Origin: a virus
Length of the DNA: 20,111 nt
Virus record (IMG/VR): IMGVR_UViG_3300012228_000023
Coordinates: 1-20,111 of that record
Strand: one strand, 5' to 3'
The number at the start of each line of letters is the position of its first letter. Position 1 is the first letter of the stretch. Positions 3,189-14,769 of the stretch are shown here, one piece after another. The notes under the pieces were generated by a model. That model saw nothing but the letters and a program-made list of their open reading frames with translations. It had not been told where the DNA came from and made no database searches. The translations under genes and the position numbers were made by a program.

Positions 3189-3260
3189 TGGCGTTCGAGG
3201 CCGGCTTGGGTACCGACTTCTCCTGGTTGAAGCCAGGCGTCCTAAGTAGACGACTCGAAC
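3189..3260 (-). ncRNA. tRNA-Glu-like RNA, copy 1 (anticodon-position TTC)
   Basis: On the minus strand this 72-nt element folds as a cloverleaf. Acceptor GTTCGAG/CTCGAAC (7 bp) is followed by G and an encoded CCA. The D-arm is CGTC/GACG with loop TACTTAG, the anticodon stem CCTGG/CCAGG with loop CTTCAA, the variable loop AGAA, and the T-stem GTCGG/CCGGC with loop TACCCAAG. The D-arm resembles tRNA-Glu (TCGTCTA...AGGAC in E. coli). Compared with a real tRNA-Glu, the anticodon loop has six bases and lacks U33, the D-loop is about four bases short and has no GG pair, and the T-loop has eight bases with an A after T54. Two further copies share all three changes. Standard decoding looks unlikely; GluRS recognition looks possible. 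Confidence 0.75.
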
Positions 3261-3266
3261 ATCGAG

Positions 3267-3361
3267 TGTGGAAGCCGGGGGTCTGTCCGCTGTATCCCCG
3301 TCTTACGACGACACATGCTCAACCAGGAGCGACCCGGGAACATTTGCTTGTGTCTTCCACA
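3267..3361 (-). ncRNA. Folded RNA element between tRNA-like copies 1 and 2
   Basis: An 8-bp closing helix (3267-3274 with 3354-3361, TGTGGAAG/CTTCCACA) encloses 79 nt and sits 6 nt from the tRNA-like element on each side. Reading the minus strand, inner helices include ACACA/TGTGT enclosing GCTC/GAGC, a small hairpin with a GTAA (GNRA-type) loop closed by CGTC/GACG, and GGGG/CCCC near the 3' side. It has no CCA, T-loop or clear anticodon arm, so I do not call it a tRNA. There is no open frame with a ribosome site. The strand is assumed from the neighbours. Confidence 0.5.
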
Positions 3362-3366
3362 AATTT

Positions 3367-3438
3367 TGGCGTTCCGTGCCAGATTGGATACTGACCTCTC
3401 TCGCTTGAGGGCGAGCGTCCTGGATAGACGAACGGAAC
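3367..3438 (-). ncRNA. tRNA-Glu-like RNA, copy 2 (anticodon-position CTC)
   Basis: Second 72-nt copy. Acceptor GTTCCGT/ACGGAAC, then G and CCA; D-arm CGTC/GACG with loop TATCCAG; anticodon stem CTCGC/GCGAG with loop CCTCAA; variable loop AGAG; T-stem GTCAG/CTGGC with loop TATCCAAT. The stems differ from copy 1 yet still pair, so base changes are compensatory. The loop anomalies are the same as in copy 1. If the missing loop base is U33, the anticodon position reads CTC (Glu). Confidence 0.75.
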
Positions 3439-3444
3439 AGGGGT

Positions 3445-3505
3445 GCCCTTCCAGCGGAGCGCCCGCGCTGGACTTAGCCCTGCACACCGGCTCTGCAGGG
3501 AGGGC
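3445..3505 (-). ncRNA. Three-way-junction RNA element
   Basis: An outer helix (3445-3449 GCCCT with 3501-3505 AGGGC) closes two perfect hairpins: CCAGCG/CGCTGG (3451-3456 with 3466-3471) and CCCTGCA/TGCAGGG (3478-3484 with 3494-3500). It lies between tRNA-like copy 2 and the stop codon of the 83-residue gene, so in the transcript it is the 3' trailer of that gene. It lacks a T-tract, so it is not a classical terminator. It could protect or help process the RNA ends; role unknown. Confidence 0.5.
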
Positions 3506-3511
3506 GTTGAT

Positions 3512-3763
3512 CTACGGAAGGGTGAGGGGTGAAGTGTAGGTTCCGGTGCTGGTACGCATCCTGATCTGTGCCTCCAGGAAGGCGACCTTGGCCTCGAGGA
3601 ACTTGATCTCCTTGAGGTACTGGTCCATGACGGCCTTCTGGAACCTGACCTTGTCCTGAAGTTCGACGTTCTTGAAGGCGATGATTGCGATGTCATCAGC
3701 ACTGGCTTCTTCCTTCTCGCCACAACAGATTCCCCGTTCGGGGTGACCGCAGTTGCAGGGCAT
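3512..3763 (-). CDS. 83-residue Cys-knuckle and coiled-coil protein
   Basis: The N-terminus holds MPCNCGHPERGICCG, with C3, C5, C13 and C14 plus H7 as a possible small metal knuckle. Residues about 28-68 form a heptad-rich charged helix, then a Thr/Ser/Pro tail. AGGAGG nine bases upstream supports the ATG at 3763. The gene is wedged between tRNA-like copy 3 (upstream in the transcript, CCA end only 24 nt before the ATG) and the three-way-junction element downstream. Release of copy 3 from the transcript would leave a short-leader mRNA. No family is recognised. Confidence 0.75.
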   Translation of the reverse strand: MPCNCGHPERGICCGEKEEASADDIAIIAFKNVELQDKVRFQKAVMDQYLKEIKFLEAKVAFLEAQIRMRTSTGTYTSPLTLP

Positions 3764-3787
3764 CAGGTATTACCTCCTGGAGAAAGT

Positions 3788-3859
3788 TGGCGTTCCCGGC
3801 CGGGTTCGATACCTGCATCTGTCGGTTGAGGCCGACCGTCCTGCTTAGACGACGGGAAC
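3788..3859 (-). ncRNA. tRNA-Glu-like RNA, copy 3 (anticodon-position CTC)
   Basis: Third 72-nt copy, lying alone between two protein genes. Acceptor GTTCCCG/CGGGAAC, then G and CCA; D-arm CGTC/GACG with loop TAAGCAG; anticodon stem GTCGG/CCGAC with loop CCTCAA; variable loop AGAT; T-stem GCAGG/CCGGC with one A-G mismatch and loop TATCGAAC, which looks like a normal TTCGAAC loop with an A inserted. Copies 1-3 agree in length to the base. The 42-residue gene ends 7 nt upstream. Confidence 0.75.
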
Positions 3860-4155: not shown

Positions 4156-4211
4156 CGTGAGGCCCCCTTGGGCCGAACACATTGTGATCCTGCTTAAAGA
4201 TCTGAGTGTGG

Positions 4212-4310
4212 CCCAGATCCAAGCACTGACATTGCCGGCAGGTGGCGGGGCGAGAGGTCCCGGTCAGGGGGCATCTGCGCGTTGGGCCGGTTATCAGTGC
4301 TTGGTCTGGG
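4212..4310 (-). ncRNA. Long-helix RNA element (17 bp with one bulge)
   Basis: CCCAGA, a bulged T, and CCAAGCACTGA (4212-4229) pair fully with TCAGTGCTTGGTCTGGG (4294-4310). This gives 17 base pairs around a 64-nt interior that has a further CCGGC/GCCGG helix (4235-4239 with 4286-4290). A perfect helix this long is not expected by chance in 100 nt. It lies in the 170-nt gap between the 84-residue and 31-residue genes and has no T-tract. It might be an RNase III processing site, a stabiliser or a structured RNA. The strand is assumed from its neighbours. Confidence 0.6.
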
Positions 4311-4324
4311 TCAGGCTCCTGTGC

Positions 4325-4579
4325 TTACGCCGCTACGGCCTGGGCGGCCGCCTGAGCGGCCTTGTAGTTGGTGCCGGCGTTGCGGTCGATCGGCTCGTAG
4401 ACCTTCTTGACGGCCGGCTCGGTCGGCATCGCCTTGATCGTGATGAGCAGTTTGTCGTTCTTGATCAGCGGGTCCAGCCGGGCTCCGCTGAGCCGCAGGT
4501 CCTTGGAGACCGCCTTCGGGTCCGACAGGTCCTTGAGGGTGACGAAGTAGATCGTGTCCTTGTCCAGTCGCATTGCCAT
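4325..4579 (-). CDS. 84-residue protein of unknown function
   Basis: ATG at 4579 has AAAGGAGG at good spacing. The protein (MAMRLDKDTIYFVTLKDLSD...) looks like a small mixed alpha/beta domain with many Lys and Asp residues, and ends in an Ala/Gln-rich helix (KAAQAAAQAVAA). There are no cysteines, signal peptide or catalytic motif. It stands alone between two structured RNA elements (4212-4310 and 4659-4797). I do not recognise it. Confidence 0.78.
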   Translation of the reverse strand: MAMRLDKDTIYFVTLKDLSDPKAVSKDLRLSGARLDPLIKNDKLLITIKAMPTEPAVKKVYEPIDRNAGTNYKAAQAAAQAVAA

Positions 4580-5867: not shown

Positions 5868-6031
5868 GACTTGCTCCTTTCGGTCTGAAGGTTCAGTTCC
5901 TTCGCGATCTGCTCTGCTCTGAAGTAGCACTTGTCGGCCTGTACGCTGTTGCCTTGGCGCACTGCATCGTTACCGCGTACGTTCCACTGGCACATCTCGC
6001 GGTACAGCCTGTTCTTGACGTGCTCTGGCAT
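5864..6031 (-). CDS. 55-residue helical protein
   Basis: ATG at 6031-6029, preceded by TAGGAGGTTCACC, opens MPEHVKNRLYREMCQWNVRG and continues to KELNLQTERSKS. It is predicted all helical, with a charged, TPR-like repeat character (RGNDAVRQGNSVQADKCYFRAEQ). It stops in an ATGA overlap with the SLOG gene, so the two are co-translated. It is the first gene after the terminator at 6066-6099. No family is recognised. Confidence 0.75.
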   Translation of the reverse strand: MPEHVKNRLYREMCQWNVRGNDAVRQGNSVQADKCYFRAEQIAKELNLQTERSKS

Positions 6032-6065
6032 GGTGAACCTCCTACGTGGGATATGGTGCTCGCAT

Positions 6066-6099
6066 AAAAAAAGCCCCCTGCGTGACCGCAGAGGGCTTC
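6066..6099 (-). terminator. Rho-independent terminator
   Basis: A 12-bp stem with one mismatch (6072-6083 with 6088-6099) and a four-base loop is followed on the minus strand by six T residues (6071-6066). It would end or attenuate transcripts carrying the two small exported/membrane genes at 6116-6438 before the SLOG operon. No T-tract exists on the other side, so it acts on the minus strand only. Confidence 0.9.
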
Positions 6100-6115
6100 G
6101 TAGGTGGTGCTTGGT

Positions 6116-6196
6116 TTACCGGTTGTCTCGGTAGCACTGGTAGCAGGTGACGATGAACAGGGCGATCAGGGAAAAACCGATGATGTTGTCGATCAT
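6116..6196 (-). CDS. 26-residue single-pass membrane peptide
   Basis: MIDNIIGFSLIALFIVTCYQ followed by CYRDNR: one hydrophobic helix with two cysteines at the membrane edge and a polar tail. Its ATG overlaps the stop of the 81-residue gene (ATGA), with no strong ribosome site of its own, so it probably depends on coupling. It is the second coupled pair of exported protein plus tiny membrane peptide in this early region; the other is at 2500-2822. Confidence 0.6.
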   Translation of the reverse strand: MIDNIIGFSLIALFIVTCYQCYRDNR

Positions 6197-6438
6197 GATC
6201 TTGTCTTGTACGGCATGTTCAGCAGGTCGAGCGGTTCGATGTAGGCAGACAGGTCCATCATGAGGAACAGTTGTTCTTCGTCTTCGCACTCGCTGTCCGT
6301 CGTGCACTCATGCAGGTGCCCGTGGCACAATGGAGCGATCTCGTACCCTGCGTGCCCCGTGGCCGCGAGTGCGACCCAGATCCAGATGGCGATTACGATT
6401 GCGGCGATGGCGATTCTCATGTTCTGCAGATTAAGCAT
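6193..6438 (-). CDS. 81-residue exported Cys/His-rich small protein
   Basis: An ATG preceded by TGGAGGTG opens MLNLQNMRIAIAAIVIAIWI: a strong signal or anchor helix up to about residue 27 (ATGHA, a plausible cleavage site). An acidic segment with C36, H38, H41, C43 and C49 follows, which could bind metal or form disulphides. A second Met at residue 7 is possible. It is the first gene after the 1.2-kb non-coding junction and so probably among the first expressed on infection. No family is recognised. Confidence 0.75.
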   Translation of the reverse strand: MLNLQNMRIAIAAIVIAIWIWVALAATGHAGYEIAPLCHGHLHECTTDSECEDEEQLFLMMDLSAYIEPLDLLNMPYKTRS

Positions 6439-6465
6439 GTGGCACCTCCAAGTGGGTTTATGAAG

Positions 6466-6741
6466 CGTTTTTGTTGTGTGACAAAGGCCGAAGGCCGACA
6501 CCGCATAGGGCAAGGGAGTTGAGGCCGACGGAAGCGACGAGATAGGGCGATGTGGGAACGAATAGGTAGTGCATTCATGAGTGACCATGAGCCCTGTCGC
6601 TGGAGGAGGGCTCAATCTCACGGCCGGCAAGCCGAAGCCGCCTCTCAGGCGGAGGCGTGGTGACGCCTCGGCAAGCGTATAGCCTCTCGCTTCTTAAGCG
6701 CAGGCCACCTGCCGGGGCCCGGCGGTTCACACAACAAAACG
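6466..6741. repeat. Inverted 9-14 bp repeat flanking 250 bp
   Basis: CGTTTTTGTTGTGTG at 6466-6480 is matched in inverted orientation by CACACAACAAAACG at 6729-6742, differing by one T in the run. The pair brackets the first quarter of the non-coding junction, next to the first early gene. Confidence 0.5.
6638..6668. repeat. Two adjacent perfect hairpins
   Basis: CCGCCT/AGGCGG (6638-6643 with 6647-6652, loop of 3) is followed directly by AGGCGT/ACGCCT (6653-6658 with 6663-6668, loop of 4). The two GC-rich stems have no spacer between them. Neither has a T-tract. Confidence 0.65.
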
Positions 6742-6981
6742 TTATTCGAGTCGAGCGATGACCTCCCCATGGCCTGTGTGGGTGGTGAGCGAAGGAGCGC
6801 AGCGACGAAGCGAATAGTGGGGAGGCGAGTGAGCGATACTTGGGTGGTTTTGGAGCGAACGGCTAGCGAGCGAGCCCGAAGGAGCGGAAGCGAGTGAGGG
6901 ATTGAGGGAGCCGAAGGCGACACATATTATCCTCACCGTACGAGCGAAGCGAGGATGCCGTGGTAGTTACGGTGTTGTGAG

Positions 6982-7005
6982 TGTGCTACCCCGCGAGGTA
7001 GCACA
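6982..7005. repeat. Perfect 9-bp hairpin
   Basis: TGTGCTACC (6982-6990) pairs perfectly with GGTAGCACA (6997-7005) around the loop CCGCGA. There is no T-run on either strand, so it is not a classical terminator; a protein-binding or processing site is possible. Confidence 0.7.
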
Positions 7006-7059
7006 TGCTTAATGGCGTGAGCGAATGCTATGCGAGCGCCATGCTTGGTTCTTCCTTTT

Positions 7060-7159
7060 TGGACTGTGTTGGTGCGAGCGGGGCCTTATGAGAGACTCAC
7101 CCGCGTCATCGCATGCTGTGCCTCTGTCTCTTCTTCTTTATGAGTGGACTGTGTTGGTG
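7060..7159. repeat. Direct repeat of 15 bp, 85 bp apart
   Basis: TGGACTGTGTTGGTG occurs at 7060-7074 and 7145-7159 without mismatch. Both copies are preceded by a pyrimidine-rich tract (cttcctttt; cttcttta). Confidence 0.7.
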
Positions 7160-7318
7160 TTAACGGCGAAGCGAGGTACGAGCGTAGCCGATGCTGTTGG
7201 TGTGCTTGGGTGTTGCATGGTGGAGCGAAGGGACTGAGCGAGTGGTGCATGGTGGCGAAAAAGGCAGTAGCCCCCGAACACACAAGCAACACTCACGCAC
7301 CCCGTTCTGCCCCTCATA

Positions 7319-7366
7319 GGCGTGCAGGAGGATAGCCCTTGACGATTAGCCATCAAGAAGCACGCC
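7319..7366. repeat. Nested inverted repeat
   Basis: GGCGTGC (7319-7325) pairs with GCACGCC (7360-7366), and inside it CTTGA (7338-7342) pairs with TCAAG (7353-7357). It lies just outside the larger inverted repeat at 7370-7519. Confidence 0.5.
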
Positions 7367-7369
7367 GTC

Positions 7370-7519
7370 GGTAGTGCTGAGCACACCAAGGCACACACCT
7401 AAGCAACACCCATGCCCCACATGGGAGGGACATTAGGCCCCCTCACGAAATAATTATGGTAGAGCCGCGGCATGGGTGTTGCTTGGGTGTGGGTCTGCCT
7501 TGGGGTGTGAAGCACTACC
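7370..7519. repeat. 150-bp imperfect inverted repeat
   Basis: The left arm (7370-7416) begins GGTAGTGCT and ends TAAGCAACACCCATGCC. The right arm (7469-7519) is its near complement, starting GGCATGGGTGTTGCTT and ending AGCACTACC. The arms differ by small gaps and a few mismatches. The 52-nt centre holds the most AT-rich spot of the junction (AAATAATTAT, 7448-7457). The shape suits a cruciform, a terminal hairpin-like processing site or an origin. Confidence 0.75.
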
Positions 7520-7614
7520 CCCTATGGGGGGAACTTCAAAGACAGCCCCTTGCGTACCCTCTTCAGAAATTTGTGGCAAAATATTGAGCCACCATGCAAC
7601 TCTTTCGGTAACCC

Positions 7615-8086: not shown

Positions 8087-9736
8087 TCATGCCCACTTAG
8101 GAGACGCTGCATGGTTGGTACCCAGGATGTTATCCACAAACTTTCTCAGCTCAGCGTCGATCTGGTCGTTTTTCCAGTCAGCTGAAGCTGTACGGTCATC
8201 TCTCGCCATCGAGTCTACCCAATACGAAACTGCTATTGATAAGGCGTCCAATCGATCGTCGTGTTTCAACGCCCCTCGCTCACGAGTGATGTGAGTCAAC
8301 TGATAGAGGAGAGAGTAGCGGACATCAGCAAAACTTAAGTCAGACTTAAGTGCATCCAGGTCCACCACCAATCTATGTCTATTGATAACTGGTTCCAGGA
8401 CGTCTATGATCCGCTTTTCCTTCTGGATGTTGTGTTTCACTTCCTCGGTGGTGCATGGGTAGATGCGGGTCAGGATGGGAGTGAAGATGTTGGTGAACAT
8501 ACCGTCACCGAAGTTAGCCTCGATGATGATATAGTTGACCTGGTGGCGCTTGGCTATCTGCGCCAGAGCGACCAGAGTAGGCTCATCATAACCGCCCAAT
8601 AGACCACCCACTGCGGAGCAGAAGAGTGTGCCATGAAGCTGCTTAACCACTGCATAGCCAGTCTCGTCCTTCCCTCGACCTGAGGGGTCGATCGACATCA
8701 CGGACCCTTCCCAGGGGGCCCACTTTTCATCAACGAACATGGGGGAGAATAGTCGGTCTCCTGTGAACCCGACGTTGGCCAGGTCACGGAGCTGCTGCGT
8801 AACACCAGACCCCCATGCAAGACTCACGGGCCCCTTATCCGACTGACAGGGCATGACCACGAGATCCTGGGTCCTCAGAGGGTACCGCTGGAGGTCTGAT
8901 AGTGAGGTATCGAGCATGAACTGGAGAGCGAAGCCTGACTTCCCGTAGGCTGCTTCCCTCTCGGCCAGGTCTATCTCCGAGAAGCGCTTGGGGTCCGTGG
9001 GAGTACCGGCCAGGCTGGGGTTTGCTTCTAATTCTTCGAGCAGGGCTGGTGCTAAGTCCCCGTTATAGATCTGCAGAGAGGACACCTGCGGGAACCTCGC
9101 CGGCCAGATGCGGCATGAGTACCCCCGTTCTCTGAGCTTATTGTAAACAGATGCCTCGGTCTGGGGAGTGCCAAGGTACGTGATTCGTCCGACCTCTGGC
9201 ATGATAATCGCCTCGAACTCGAGGACTGTCGAGAGGAGCTTGTCCCTCTTATCTTCGGTGTCACTGTTGTTTTGAACCTCCACGTCATCAGCGATAATGT
9301 CTGTGGCACGGCTACCAGTCATTTGACCGAAGACCCCCACCGATTTCACGGAAGGAGCGTGAGCCGCTCGAGCTGGCGCCACATCGAACGCAATTTTTGA
9401 GCTACGTTGGTCATCCGTGGGCATTAGGTGTTGCAGGATCGGCATCTCACGGATAAGTCGCTGTGTAAAGATGGAGAAATCGTCGGACCGCTGCTTACTT
9501 GCTGAAACAATCAGGAACTTACGTTCAGGGTCACAGAAAAGGCACCACAGAACGTACGCCGAGGTGATCCAGGACTTCCCTTCACCTCGGAACGCCTCAA
9601 TTACCTGCCGTTTTGGTCCATACTGGAGGTAATGAGCGATCTCGTACTGTCTCGGGGTTGGATCGGGGAGCCGCAAGTGCTTCCAGACCACCCAGAGGAA
9701 GTTCCTGAAGTCGTTCTTCAGTAAATCAAGATCCAC
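8087..9736 (-). CDS. terL: Terminase large subunit, T7 gp19 type
   Basis: This 549-residue packaging motor and nuclease has FRGEGKSW (Walker A, 49-56), DIIADDVE (Walker B, 146-153) and TYLGTPQTE (coupling motif, about 186-194). The RNase H-like nuclease follows, with SIDPSGRG (D350), IIIEANFG (E406) and KHDDRLDA (D493/D494). Length and motif wording match DNA maturase B of T7-like phages (586 residues in T7). It pumps DNA into proheads and cuts concatemers together with the small subunit. The start is GTG at 9736, behind GGAGGATCTGAC, and it follows the 63-residue gene stop within a few bases. Its DNA contains two ACTTAAGT palindromes near the 3' end. Confidence 0.96.
   Translation of the reverse strand: MDLDLLKNDFRNFLWVVWKHLRLPDPTPRQYEIAHYLQYGPKRQVIEAFRGEGKSWITSAYVLWCLFCDPERKFLIVSASKQRSDDFSIFTQRLIREMPILQHLMPTDDQRSSKIAFDVAPARAAHAPSVKSVGVFGQMTGSRATDIIADDVEVQNNSDTEDKRDKLLSTVLEFEAIIMPEVGRITYLGTPQTEASVYNKLRERGYSCRIWPARFPQVSSLQIYNGDLAPALLEELEANPSLAGTPTDPKRFSEIDLAEREAAYGKSGFALQFMLDTSLSDLQRYPLRTQDLVVMPCQSDKGPVSLAWGSGVTQQLRDLANVGFTGDRLFSPMFVDEKWAPWEGSVMSIDPSGRGKDETGYAVVKQLHGTLFCSAVGGLLGGYDEPTLVALAQIAKRHQVNYIIIEANFGDGMFTNIFTPILTRIYPCTTEEVKHNIQKEKRIIDVLEPVINRHRLVVDLDALKSDLSFADVRYSLLYQLTHITRERGALKHDDRLDALSIAVSYWVDSMARDDRTASADWKNDQIDAELRKFVDNILGTNHAASPKWA
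8333..8350. repeat. Two ACTTAAGT palindromes inside the terminase gene
   Basis: ACTTAAG at 8333-8339 and 8344-8350, both extending to ACTTAAGT, again 11 bp apart. The spacing is not a multiple of three, so the two copies are read in different codon phases and the repeat is not a protein repeat. It matches the cluster at 8050-8078. Confidence 0.75.
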
Positions 9737-9929: not shown

Positions 9930-10159
9930 TACTTTACAAGTCGAAGGCTCGCGTCACCAGAGGTGAACGGGAGGATCTCTGCCAAGCCAGCGAGGGGAGT
10001 TCCCCTTTTGACTTCAGCAGTTATCCCGTTATCCTTCAACATTTGGATTATGTTCTTGTAGTCCTGCGAGGAGGCCTCACCGGACTTGACCAGTTCGGTC
10101 AGCTTCTCCACGGAGACATCAAACAGAGCGCTGAGTACGGCTTCCCGCGGATTAGACAT
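9929..10159 (-). CDS. terS: Terminase small subunit, T7 gp18 type
   Basis: A 76-residue, mostly helical protein whose VEKLTELVKSGEASSQDYKN segment and following IIQMLKDNGI resemble the helical core of T7-type DNA maturase A (gp18, 89 residues). It would bind phage DNA and hand it to the large subunit, two genes downstream. The ATG at 10159 overlaps the end of the 634-residue gene by eight bases, with only a weak ribosome site, suggesting coupling; the longer frame from 10216 is rejected because it runs through that gene. Confidence 0.85.
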   Translation of the reverse strand: MSNPREAVLSALFDVSVEKLTELVKSGEASSQDYKNIIQMLKDNGITAEVKRGTPLAGLAEILPFTSGDASLRLVK

Positions 10160-14055: not shown

Positions 14056-14769
14056 CTATTTCTCCACGACTAAGGTGATGGTGACGCGAGTGATCGTGGC
14101 GCAGGAGTCTACGTTGTAAGACAACACATCCCCAGCGGAGATAGTGGTTGTCCATCCGGTGAGGGCGACATCCTTCACCTTCGTGCCATCCGTGATGGTG
14201 ATGGGAGTGGCCGAAGTGATCGAGTCAGCGTCCGTGGGAGGGAAATTGGCGTAGGTGTCCTTCCAGACATCCACCACGATGCTCCCGGACTGATCTGCGT
14301 AAGCGTGGGCTTCCAGAATCGTGCAGGGGAAGGGGATCTGAAGATGCCCCTTCTCCCCAGCAAGGATCGCTTCTCCCCCTCCGTCTACCACGAGGGTGAC
14401 CGCGAAGGTGTTGTTGGCGAGGTTGAAACCATCCACTATGGTCTCCAGTTGCGTTTGACCATCGAGGAGTTCTTCGATCAAGTAGATCGCTTGCAGAGCG
14501 GCCATGTTCTGGTCTTCCTCGTTGAGCAACGAGGCGTCGGTGAAAGTGACCATCGGGTCGTAAGGCGTTGACCGGAAGATCTCGACCACTGCTCCAGATG
14601 CGGCGGTTAGAGCGATGGTGGATTCAGTCACCCAGCTCCATGTGTCGTCTTCCTGTAGAACGTCATCGAAGCGGACATGGGTGTGAGAGATGTCGAGGTA
14701 GGGGAACGTGACGGAGAGGACTTGTTCGCTGCCGGTGCCTGTGTAGAAGACTTTCGATCTATACGCCAT
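14056..14769 (-). CDS. Tail fibre protein with T7 gp17-type N-terminal domain
   Basis: Residues about 1-105 match the virion-attachment domain of T7-like tail fibres: VTFPYLDISHTHVRFDD (20-36), IFRSTPYDPMVTFTDASLL (64-82) and NEEDQNMAALQAIYLIEE (83-100). In T7 this part docks the fibre to the tail. A short beta-rich C-terminal domain replaces the long shaft and tip (237 residues against 553 in T7), so receptor contact is probably passed to other proteins such as the propeller encoded next. The ATG overlaps the lysozyme gene end by 11 nt, with AAGGGGAG upstream. Confidence 0.92.
   Translation of the reverse strand: MAYRSKVFYTGTGSEQVLSVTFPYLDISHTHVRFDDVLQEDDTWSWVTESTIALTAASGAVVEIFRSTPYDPMVTFTDASLLNEEDQNMAALQAIYLIEELLDGQTQLETIVDGFNLANNTFAVTLVVDGGGEAILAGEKGHLQIPFPCTILEAHAYADQSGSIVVDVWKDTYANFPPTDADSITSATPITITDGTKVKDVALTGWTTTISAGDVLSYNVDSCATITRVTITLVVEK

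Follow-up and report, generated by a model that had tools for sequence, protein, structure and literature searches.

Three 72-nt RNAs encoded on the minus strand of a 20,111-nt viral contig (IMG/VR record IMGVR_UViG_3300012228_000023, positions 1 to 20,111; hereafter the window) belong to a real family of tRNA-Glu-like elements, which was found in six copies in three T7-like phages at one to three copies per genome. Paired stems were maintained through compensated changes, and the D-stem, acceptor end and YUCAA loop were all but invariant. With about even confidence, the elements are read as non-decoding tRNA-Glu mimics that would serve as a decoy or sink for GluRS or for a host enzyme that attacks tRNA-Glu. 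Searches of the open-access literature found no account of such a family.

Location and fold of the elements

Elements E1 (3189–3260), E2 (3367–3438) and E3 (3788–3859) each comprised 72 nt including CCA and were in sense with the phage genes, with G1 at 3260, 3438 and 3859 and A76 at 3189, 3367 and 3788, respectively. A plus-strand reading was rejected, since the minus strand carries the CCA and every other tRNA feature as well as the adjacent genes. The positions given for three cloverleaves in an earlier sequence-only reading of the window were correct: each element folded into four helices with a 7-bp acceptor, G73, an encoded CCA and a four-base variable loop (base 47 absent). Minimum-energy folds had z values of -3.6, -3.3 and -1.7 against dinucleotide shuffles, and scores were 94.7, 93.9 and 95.4 bits (E1, E2 and E3). 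E1 was read 5' to 3' (3260 to 3189) as GUUCGAG-UC-GUCU-ACUUA-GGAC-G-CCUGG-CUUCAA-CCAGG-AGAA-GUCGG-UACCCAAG-CCGGC-CUCGAAC-GCCA.

The acceptor and anticodon stems were GUUCGAG/CUCGAAC and CCUGG/CCAGG in E1, GUUCCGU/ACGGAAC and CUCGC/GCGAG in E2, and GUUCCCG/CGGGAAC and GUCGG/CCGAC in E3. The earlier description of stems that differ and stay paired held except in the T-stem of E3, which contained one A.G mismatch. Six-base anticodon loops were identified from sequence and alignment as CUUCAA in E1 (3227–3232; U33 absent if read C-UUC-AA) and CCUCAA in E2 (3405–3410) and E3 (3826–3831), all on the minus strand, so that U34 occurs among the window copies in E1 only and C34 in E2 and E3. Eight-base T-loops were placed by alignment, also on the minus strand, at 3205–3212 (UACCCAAG), 3383–3390 (UAUCCAAU) and 3804–3811 (UAUCGAAC), and their sequences were TACCCAAG, TATCCAAT and TATCGAAC in E1 to E3. 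The D-loop was AnnnA without GG, and the D-stem could be extended to 5 bp by C9 and G26. ARAGORN, the use of which had been proposed as a check, missed the elements as tRNAs and reported no tRNA within the whole window; Rfam gave no tRNA (RF00005) match in the window even at E ≤ 1.

Copies in two other phages

The pattern of E1–E3 was scanned against 2.9 million IMG/VR contigs and matched only two others, IMGVR_UViG_3300037484_000186 (G001; two tandem copies at 8221–8310 and 8318–8390) and IMGVR_UViG_3300044766_000021 (G002; one copy at 2123–2195). An RF00005 match was likewise absent from these copies. Both phages were T7-like and carried a T7-type RNA polymerase and a tyrosine integrase; G001 additionally carried a T7-type terminase, SSB, primase/helicase and DNA polymerase. 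All six copies shared a genomic place, past the terminase and small genes and ahead of zinc-finger-like and peptidase-like genes, and those in G001 and G002 also lay upstream of the integrase and RNA polymerase. The elements were the sole blastn matches between the window and G002, and flanking proteins were 33–52% identical.

E1 was closest to the G002 copy (81% identity) and E3 to G001 8318–8390 (82%), while the window's own copies were 71–77% identical to one another, below these best cross-phage pairs. Since the E1–G002 and E3–G001 pairs are closer than the window copies are mutually, the presence of several copies per genome apparently predates the split of the phages. The G001 copy at 8221–8310 contained a hairpin (~17 extra bases) within the T-loop, with D-stem, anticodon loop and acceptor unchanged.

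A relaxed pattern allowing other D-loop lengths matched 65 viral stretches, of which only those in G001 and G002 scored with a covariance model, a kind of check also suggested beforehand. Among 84,980 bacterial and archaeal genomes the relaxed pattern gave three matches, all by chance in protein-coding DNA. No more copies were found in ~100 records of more distant T7-like relatives (selected by terminase or polymerase); many of these are fragments missing this region, so that their lack of copies weighs little. Cultured phages showed no similarity by blastn. The covariance model (R1) gives only rough E-values and is matched by its members by construction; independent support for the family came from the pattern search made with the window's three copies, from synteny and from covariation.

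Selection on stems and loops

In a five-sequence alignment, eight pairs showed two-sided compensated changes (three in the acceptor, four in the anticodon stem and one in the T-stem), against a shuffle expectation of 3.5; the count was again eight with six sequences. Cells assigned to pairs were paired in 97% of cases vs 82% in shuffles. Covariation exceeded that of virtually every shuffle and of all slid controls, and the signal was destroyed when the pairing was shifted. The selection for structure proposed from the window's three copies was borne out by these compensated pairs, and none of the G001 or G002 copies had the broken stems that had been named as evidence against it.

Variation was unevenly distributed. 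Pairwise identity was 22% (i.e., chance) in the D-loop triplet between A14 and A21, 42% in acceptor pairs 5–7 and 55% in the anticodon stem. The D-stem, U8, C9, G26 and the GUUC/GAAC end of the acceptor were 100% identical in the six copies, all of which ended in GCCA. The six-base anticodon loop, CUUCAA or CCUCAA in every copy, was 91% identical, its sole variation being U or C at the second base (Y34). The T-loop had eight bases in five of the six (UAYCNAAN, one with G for A), and the sixth held the hairpin insert. Given this covariation and the frozen loops of all six copies, chance decay of tRNA-Glu genes can be excluded from the alignment.

Retained and lost features of tRNA-Glu

Published determinants of E. 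coli GluRS comprise U34, U35, C36, A37, U11-A24, U13-G22:A46 and the absence of base 47, with U34 a strong determinant and G1-C72 and U2-A71 weak ones (PMC9976931; PMC6523644). G1-C72, U2-A71, U11-A24, U13-G22:A46, the lack of base 47, U35, C36 and A37 were invariant in all six copies. The GluRS identity features listed in the sequence-only reading were therefore strictly kept throughout the family with the exception of U34, as position 34 was U in two copies and C in four, either giving a normal Glu anticodon. U33, the D-loop GG and a standard T-loop were missing from all six, as had been described for the window's three.

When the six-base loop is aligned to CUYUCAA, the missing base is best taken to be U33, since the usual U34/C34 alternation then coincides with the alternation observed at the second base. 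On this alignment, the frozen part of the elements would be the synthetase-facing surface, and the discarded parts the elbow and the U-turn.

Comparison with other tRNA-Glu genes and tRNA-like RNAs

The elements shared with bacterial tRNA-Glu (YUC) the 7-bp acceptor, G1-C72, U2-A71, the D-stem GUCU/GGAC, A14, A21, a four-base variable loop with A46, YUCA in the anticodon loop, G73 and CCA. Unlike bacterial tRNA-Glu, they had a six-base anticodon loop without U33, a five-base D-loop without GG and an eight-base T-loop (UAYCNAAN), and they escaped both ARAGORN and Rfam RF00005.

A near-normal gene was found in a more distant T7-like relative, IMGVR_UViG_3300037245_000763 (G007; terminase 55% identical). 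Its tRNA-Glu (6544–6617) had a seven-base anticodon loop (CUUUCAC), a normal T-loop and a short D-loop without GG, and was located downstream of the RNA polymerase, adjoining tRNA-Asp, at a locus different from that of the elements. Homologues with normal loops, which had been named as pointing to ordinary genes in decay, were thus present in part: the anticodon and T-loops of the G007 gene were normal, but its D-loop was not, and its locus was another one. Further phage tRNA-Glu genes in IMG/VR (L152, L169, L174 and L128/L158/L163) combined a seven-base anticodon loop containing U33 with a D-loop lacking GG. These altered-elbow genes, including that of G007, resembled the elements in their tRNA-Glu D-stem, short GG-less D-loop and mostly altered T-loops, and differed from them in the seven-base loop with U33 and in T-loops that read GGCAGTA or TGCGATA or were normal (G007). 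Altered-elbow phage tRNA-Glu genes already exist elsewhere, and the elements are a variant among phage tRNAs. Elbow drift is thus recurrent in phage tRNA-Glu, and the present family is distinguished by its six-base loop, which lacks U33 and is fixed across all six diverged copies. D-loop and T-loop changes appeared to pair up in the GG-less tRNA-Glu genes of L152, L169, L174, L128/L158/L163, L147 and L175 (AAAGY with NGCRNTA; GTGAT with TTTGATT), and such concerted change suggests alternative elbow contacts in phage tRNA-Glu.

Phage tRNAs that evade host defences (VapC/PrrC-insensitive tRNAs; T5 tRNA-Tyr against retron-Eco7; T5 tRNA-Lys against PARIS) are likewise phage-encoded and tRNA-sized with an altered anticodon loop, but their seven-base loop is decodable, their elbow is normal, and their effect comes from supplying usable tRNA. 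tRNA-Pyl resembles the elements in its small D-loop, which has no GG, and in lacking TPsiC in the T-loop; it differs in its six-bp anticodon stem and its decoding seven-base CUA loop, and its sequence is unrelated. The viral tRNA-like structures of TYMV and BMV and the thrS operator are, like the proposed mimics, aaRS-recognised and non-elongator, but they sit in RNA genomes or an mRNA leader, whereas the elements are separate, tRNA-sized and encoded by a DNA phage.

Proposed role and alternative explanations

The favoured reading is that a tRNA-Glu-derived, tRNA-sized RNA has been retained by the phage for a role distinct from ordinary decoding. Transcription would run in the direction of the adjacent genes and would probably be early, as suggested by the place of the elements between the terminase and the integrase and RNA polymerase genes and by a promoter-like site upstream of the G001 copies (TTGACA, 17, TATGCT with TG, i.e., an extended -10). 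This site was partly conserved in G002, and none of its type was found in the window. The RNA would probably be excised by host RNase P and end in its encoded CCA. It would retain the surface read by GluRS (acceptor end, augmented D-helix, a variable loop without base 47, and an anticodon loop with YUCA) and would be without U33, the elbow formed by D-loop and T-loop, and a normal T-loop, features on which the ribosome and probably EF-Tu rely. Such an RNA would most likely act as a decoy or sink, either binding host GluRS and possibly being charged by it, or occupying a host enzyme that attacks tRNA-Glu, for example an anticodon nuclease with a preference for tRNA-Glu such as RloC. The products of RloC cleavage hybridise mostly to probes for tRNA-Glu (PMC2610378), which shows that host defence is able to focus on tRNA-Glu. 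The fuller version, in which chargeable, non-decoding, multi-copy mimics capture GluRS, draw glutamate away from the ribosome or protect tRNA-Glu by being the preferred target, is offered more tentatively and is rather less probable than the mimic reading as such. Several apparently old copies per genome would suit a dosage-dependent sink.

Several points count against the mimic reading. U34, a strong E. coli determinant, is present in only two of the six copies; a GluRS sink would slow the phage's own translation too; and the anticodon, if read as YUC, would still be a legal Glu anticodon, as in a decoding tRNA. Loss of the elbow would not by itself imply lost decoding, because other phage tRNA-Glu genes without the D-loop GG keep a normal anticodon loop.

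In the strongest rival reading, the elements are tRNA-Glu that still decodes and that resists cutting by a host anticodon nuclease because the loop lacks the nucleotide adjoining the scissile bond. This is considered unlikely, though a serious contender. tRNA-Pyl and mitochondrial tRNAs function without a normal elbow, and YUC, A37, G73 and CCA are kept in 6/6 copies. Changes in phage tRNA anticodon loops have been predicted to evade tRNases (PMC10264068), T5-like phages escape retron-Eco7 through a supplied tRNA-Tyr (PMC11555353), and RloC removes the wobble nucleotide, with most of its activity on tRNA-Glu (PMC2610378). However, the rescuing T5 tRNA-Tyr required an intact anticodon and intact stem-loops (PMC11555353), whereas the elements have a loop one base short, with U33 gone from every copy on the Glu reading, have lost the elbow, and in one case (G001 8221–8310) carry a hairpin in the T-loop; altered-elbow phage tRNA-Glu genes elsewhere, moreover, retain the seven-base loop. 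The anticodon loop of the elements differs from that of every standard tRNA-Glu, the reference used for this comparison.

The remaining explanations are each less probable than a decoding tRNA. Cloverleaves acting as RNA-processing punctuation or mRNA-end structures would recruit RNase P and CCA-dependent enzymes to an early polycistronic transcript, for cleavage or for protection of its ends, and would not engage GluRS. The intergenic, in-sense position of the elements, their number per genome, the encoded CCA and the potential helices terminating 6–8 bases upstream all fit this, but it is improbable: the frozen D-stem and YUCAA loop amid stem turnover are left unexplained, as RNase P reads neither, and the upstream helices were individually beyond chance only in G002. 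A frameshifting or stop-reading tRNA is more doubtful still. UCA and the next A are invariant in 6/6 copies after a pyrimidine, and C32-Y33-UCA-A37 would give the anticodon UCA (for UGA), or else the six-base loop, which is of an unusual size, could serve non-triplet decoding at a phage site. However, comparison of the main orthologues across the three phages revealed no conserved extension past UGA, which was an ordinary stop; if the anticodon were UCA, nothing would account for the persistence of GluRS determinants in the D-stem; and the Y polymorphism is the usual Glu U34/C34 alternation if U33 is lost. Least credible, to the point of being nearly dismissed, are decaying tRNA genes or att remnants of the phage integrase. 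Tyrosine integrases occur in these phages, phage tRNA remnants are common and G007 has its near-normal tRNA-Glu, but decay runs against the compensated changes and frozen loops of six copies. The att reading was rejected because the probable att core lies elsewhere: a 40-bp identical stretch beside the integrase (G001 14121–14160; G002 7252–7291), ~5–6 kb from the elements, corresponds to the 5' half of tRNA-Cys and is likely the att core of both phages. In the plasmid collection this core was nearest Firmicutes-type sequences, a weak match.

Phage counter-defence by tRNA is so far known as a supply of usable tRNAs. If the mimic reading is true, a tRNA that keeps the synthetase-facing half and drops ribosome-facing features would be a different counter-defence strategy, and the parts kept by the phage would reveal which tRNA parts a host factor reads. 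The elements are small, escape the usual tRNA-finding programs and lend themselves to direct charging and decoding assays.

Other RNAs and neighbouring features

A tmRNA-derived mini-RNA of ~82 nt was observed in G007 (6780–6862, minus strand; 52.5 bits with RF00023), with the G3.U70 pair kept. Its layout was GGGGGTGA...TTCGAC, a single hairpin arm interrupted by an internal loop, GGAC, a T-arm and CACCTCCAC(CA). This corresponds to the tRNA-like domain of tmRNA and leaves no space for the tag-encoding mRNA-like domain. A specific pattern matched 33 viral stretches, of which ~16 were of this kind, with stems that varied and were mostly paired; besides G007, the contigs were L287, L288, L291, L292, L295/L296, L297, L300, L301, L304, L306, L308, L309, L311, L315 and L317. 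It is possible that these mini-tmRNAs are blockers or modulators of trans-translation, and a literature search found no description of them. Other unusual tRNA-like genes lay upstream of the G007 mini-tmRNA in the same array (6863–7080, minus strand): a minihelix of ~55 nt composed of acceptor and T-arm (GGGTGGC...GCCACCCACC), and a gene resembling tRNA-Tyr, with a CTGTAAG loop and extra arms that were long. In G002, a complete tRNA with a CAT anticodon (tRNA-Met by ARAGORN) was located ~100 bp beyond the tRNA-Cys half.

Potential multi-branched structures were seen in the window at 3446–3523 (X) and 3263–3360 (Y) and likewise upstream of the elements in G001 and G002, closed by 7–11 bp helices ending 6–8 bases before the tRNA-like RNAs. 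X, Y and their G001 and G002 counterparts are not claimed as a partner module, as such helices exceeded shuffles only in G002. Directly downstream of an 84-aa gene, the window contained an inverted repeat of ~130 nt (4197–4327; -59 kcal/mol on the minus strand), in which the single weak Rfam match of the window (a miRNA, by chance) was located. Approximately 1.5 kb of the window (~6000–7600), between a 114-aa gene after the terminase and a SLOG-domain gene, had no convincing genes and is possibly the genome-end region of this T7-like phage. A 136-bp stretch of the early region was 91% identical between G001 (6563–6749) and G002 (730–865), and ~41–44 bp of it, GAGCATGCTCGCTCCTTCGTC, recurred in G002 at 10047–10090 (minus strand) and 21844–21884 as a small repeat family.
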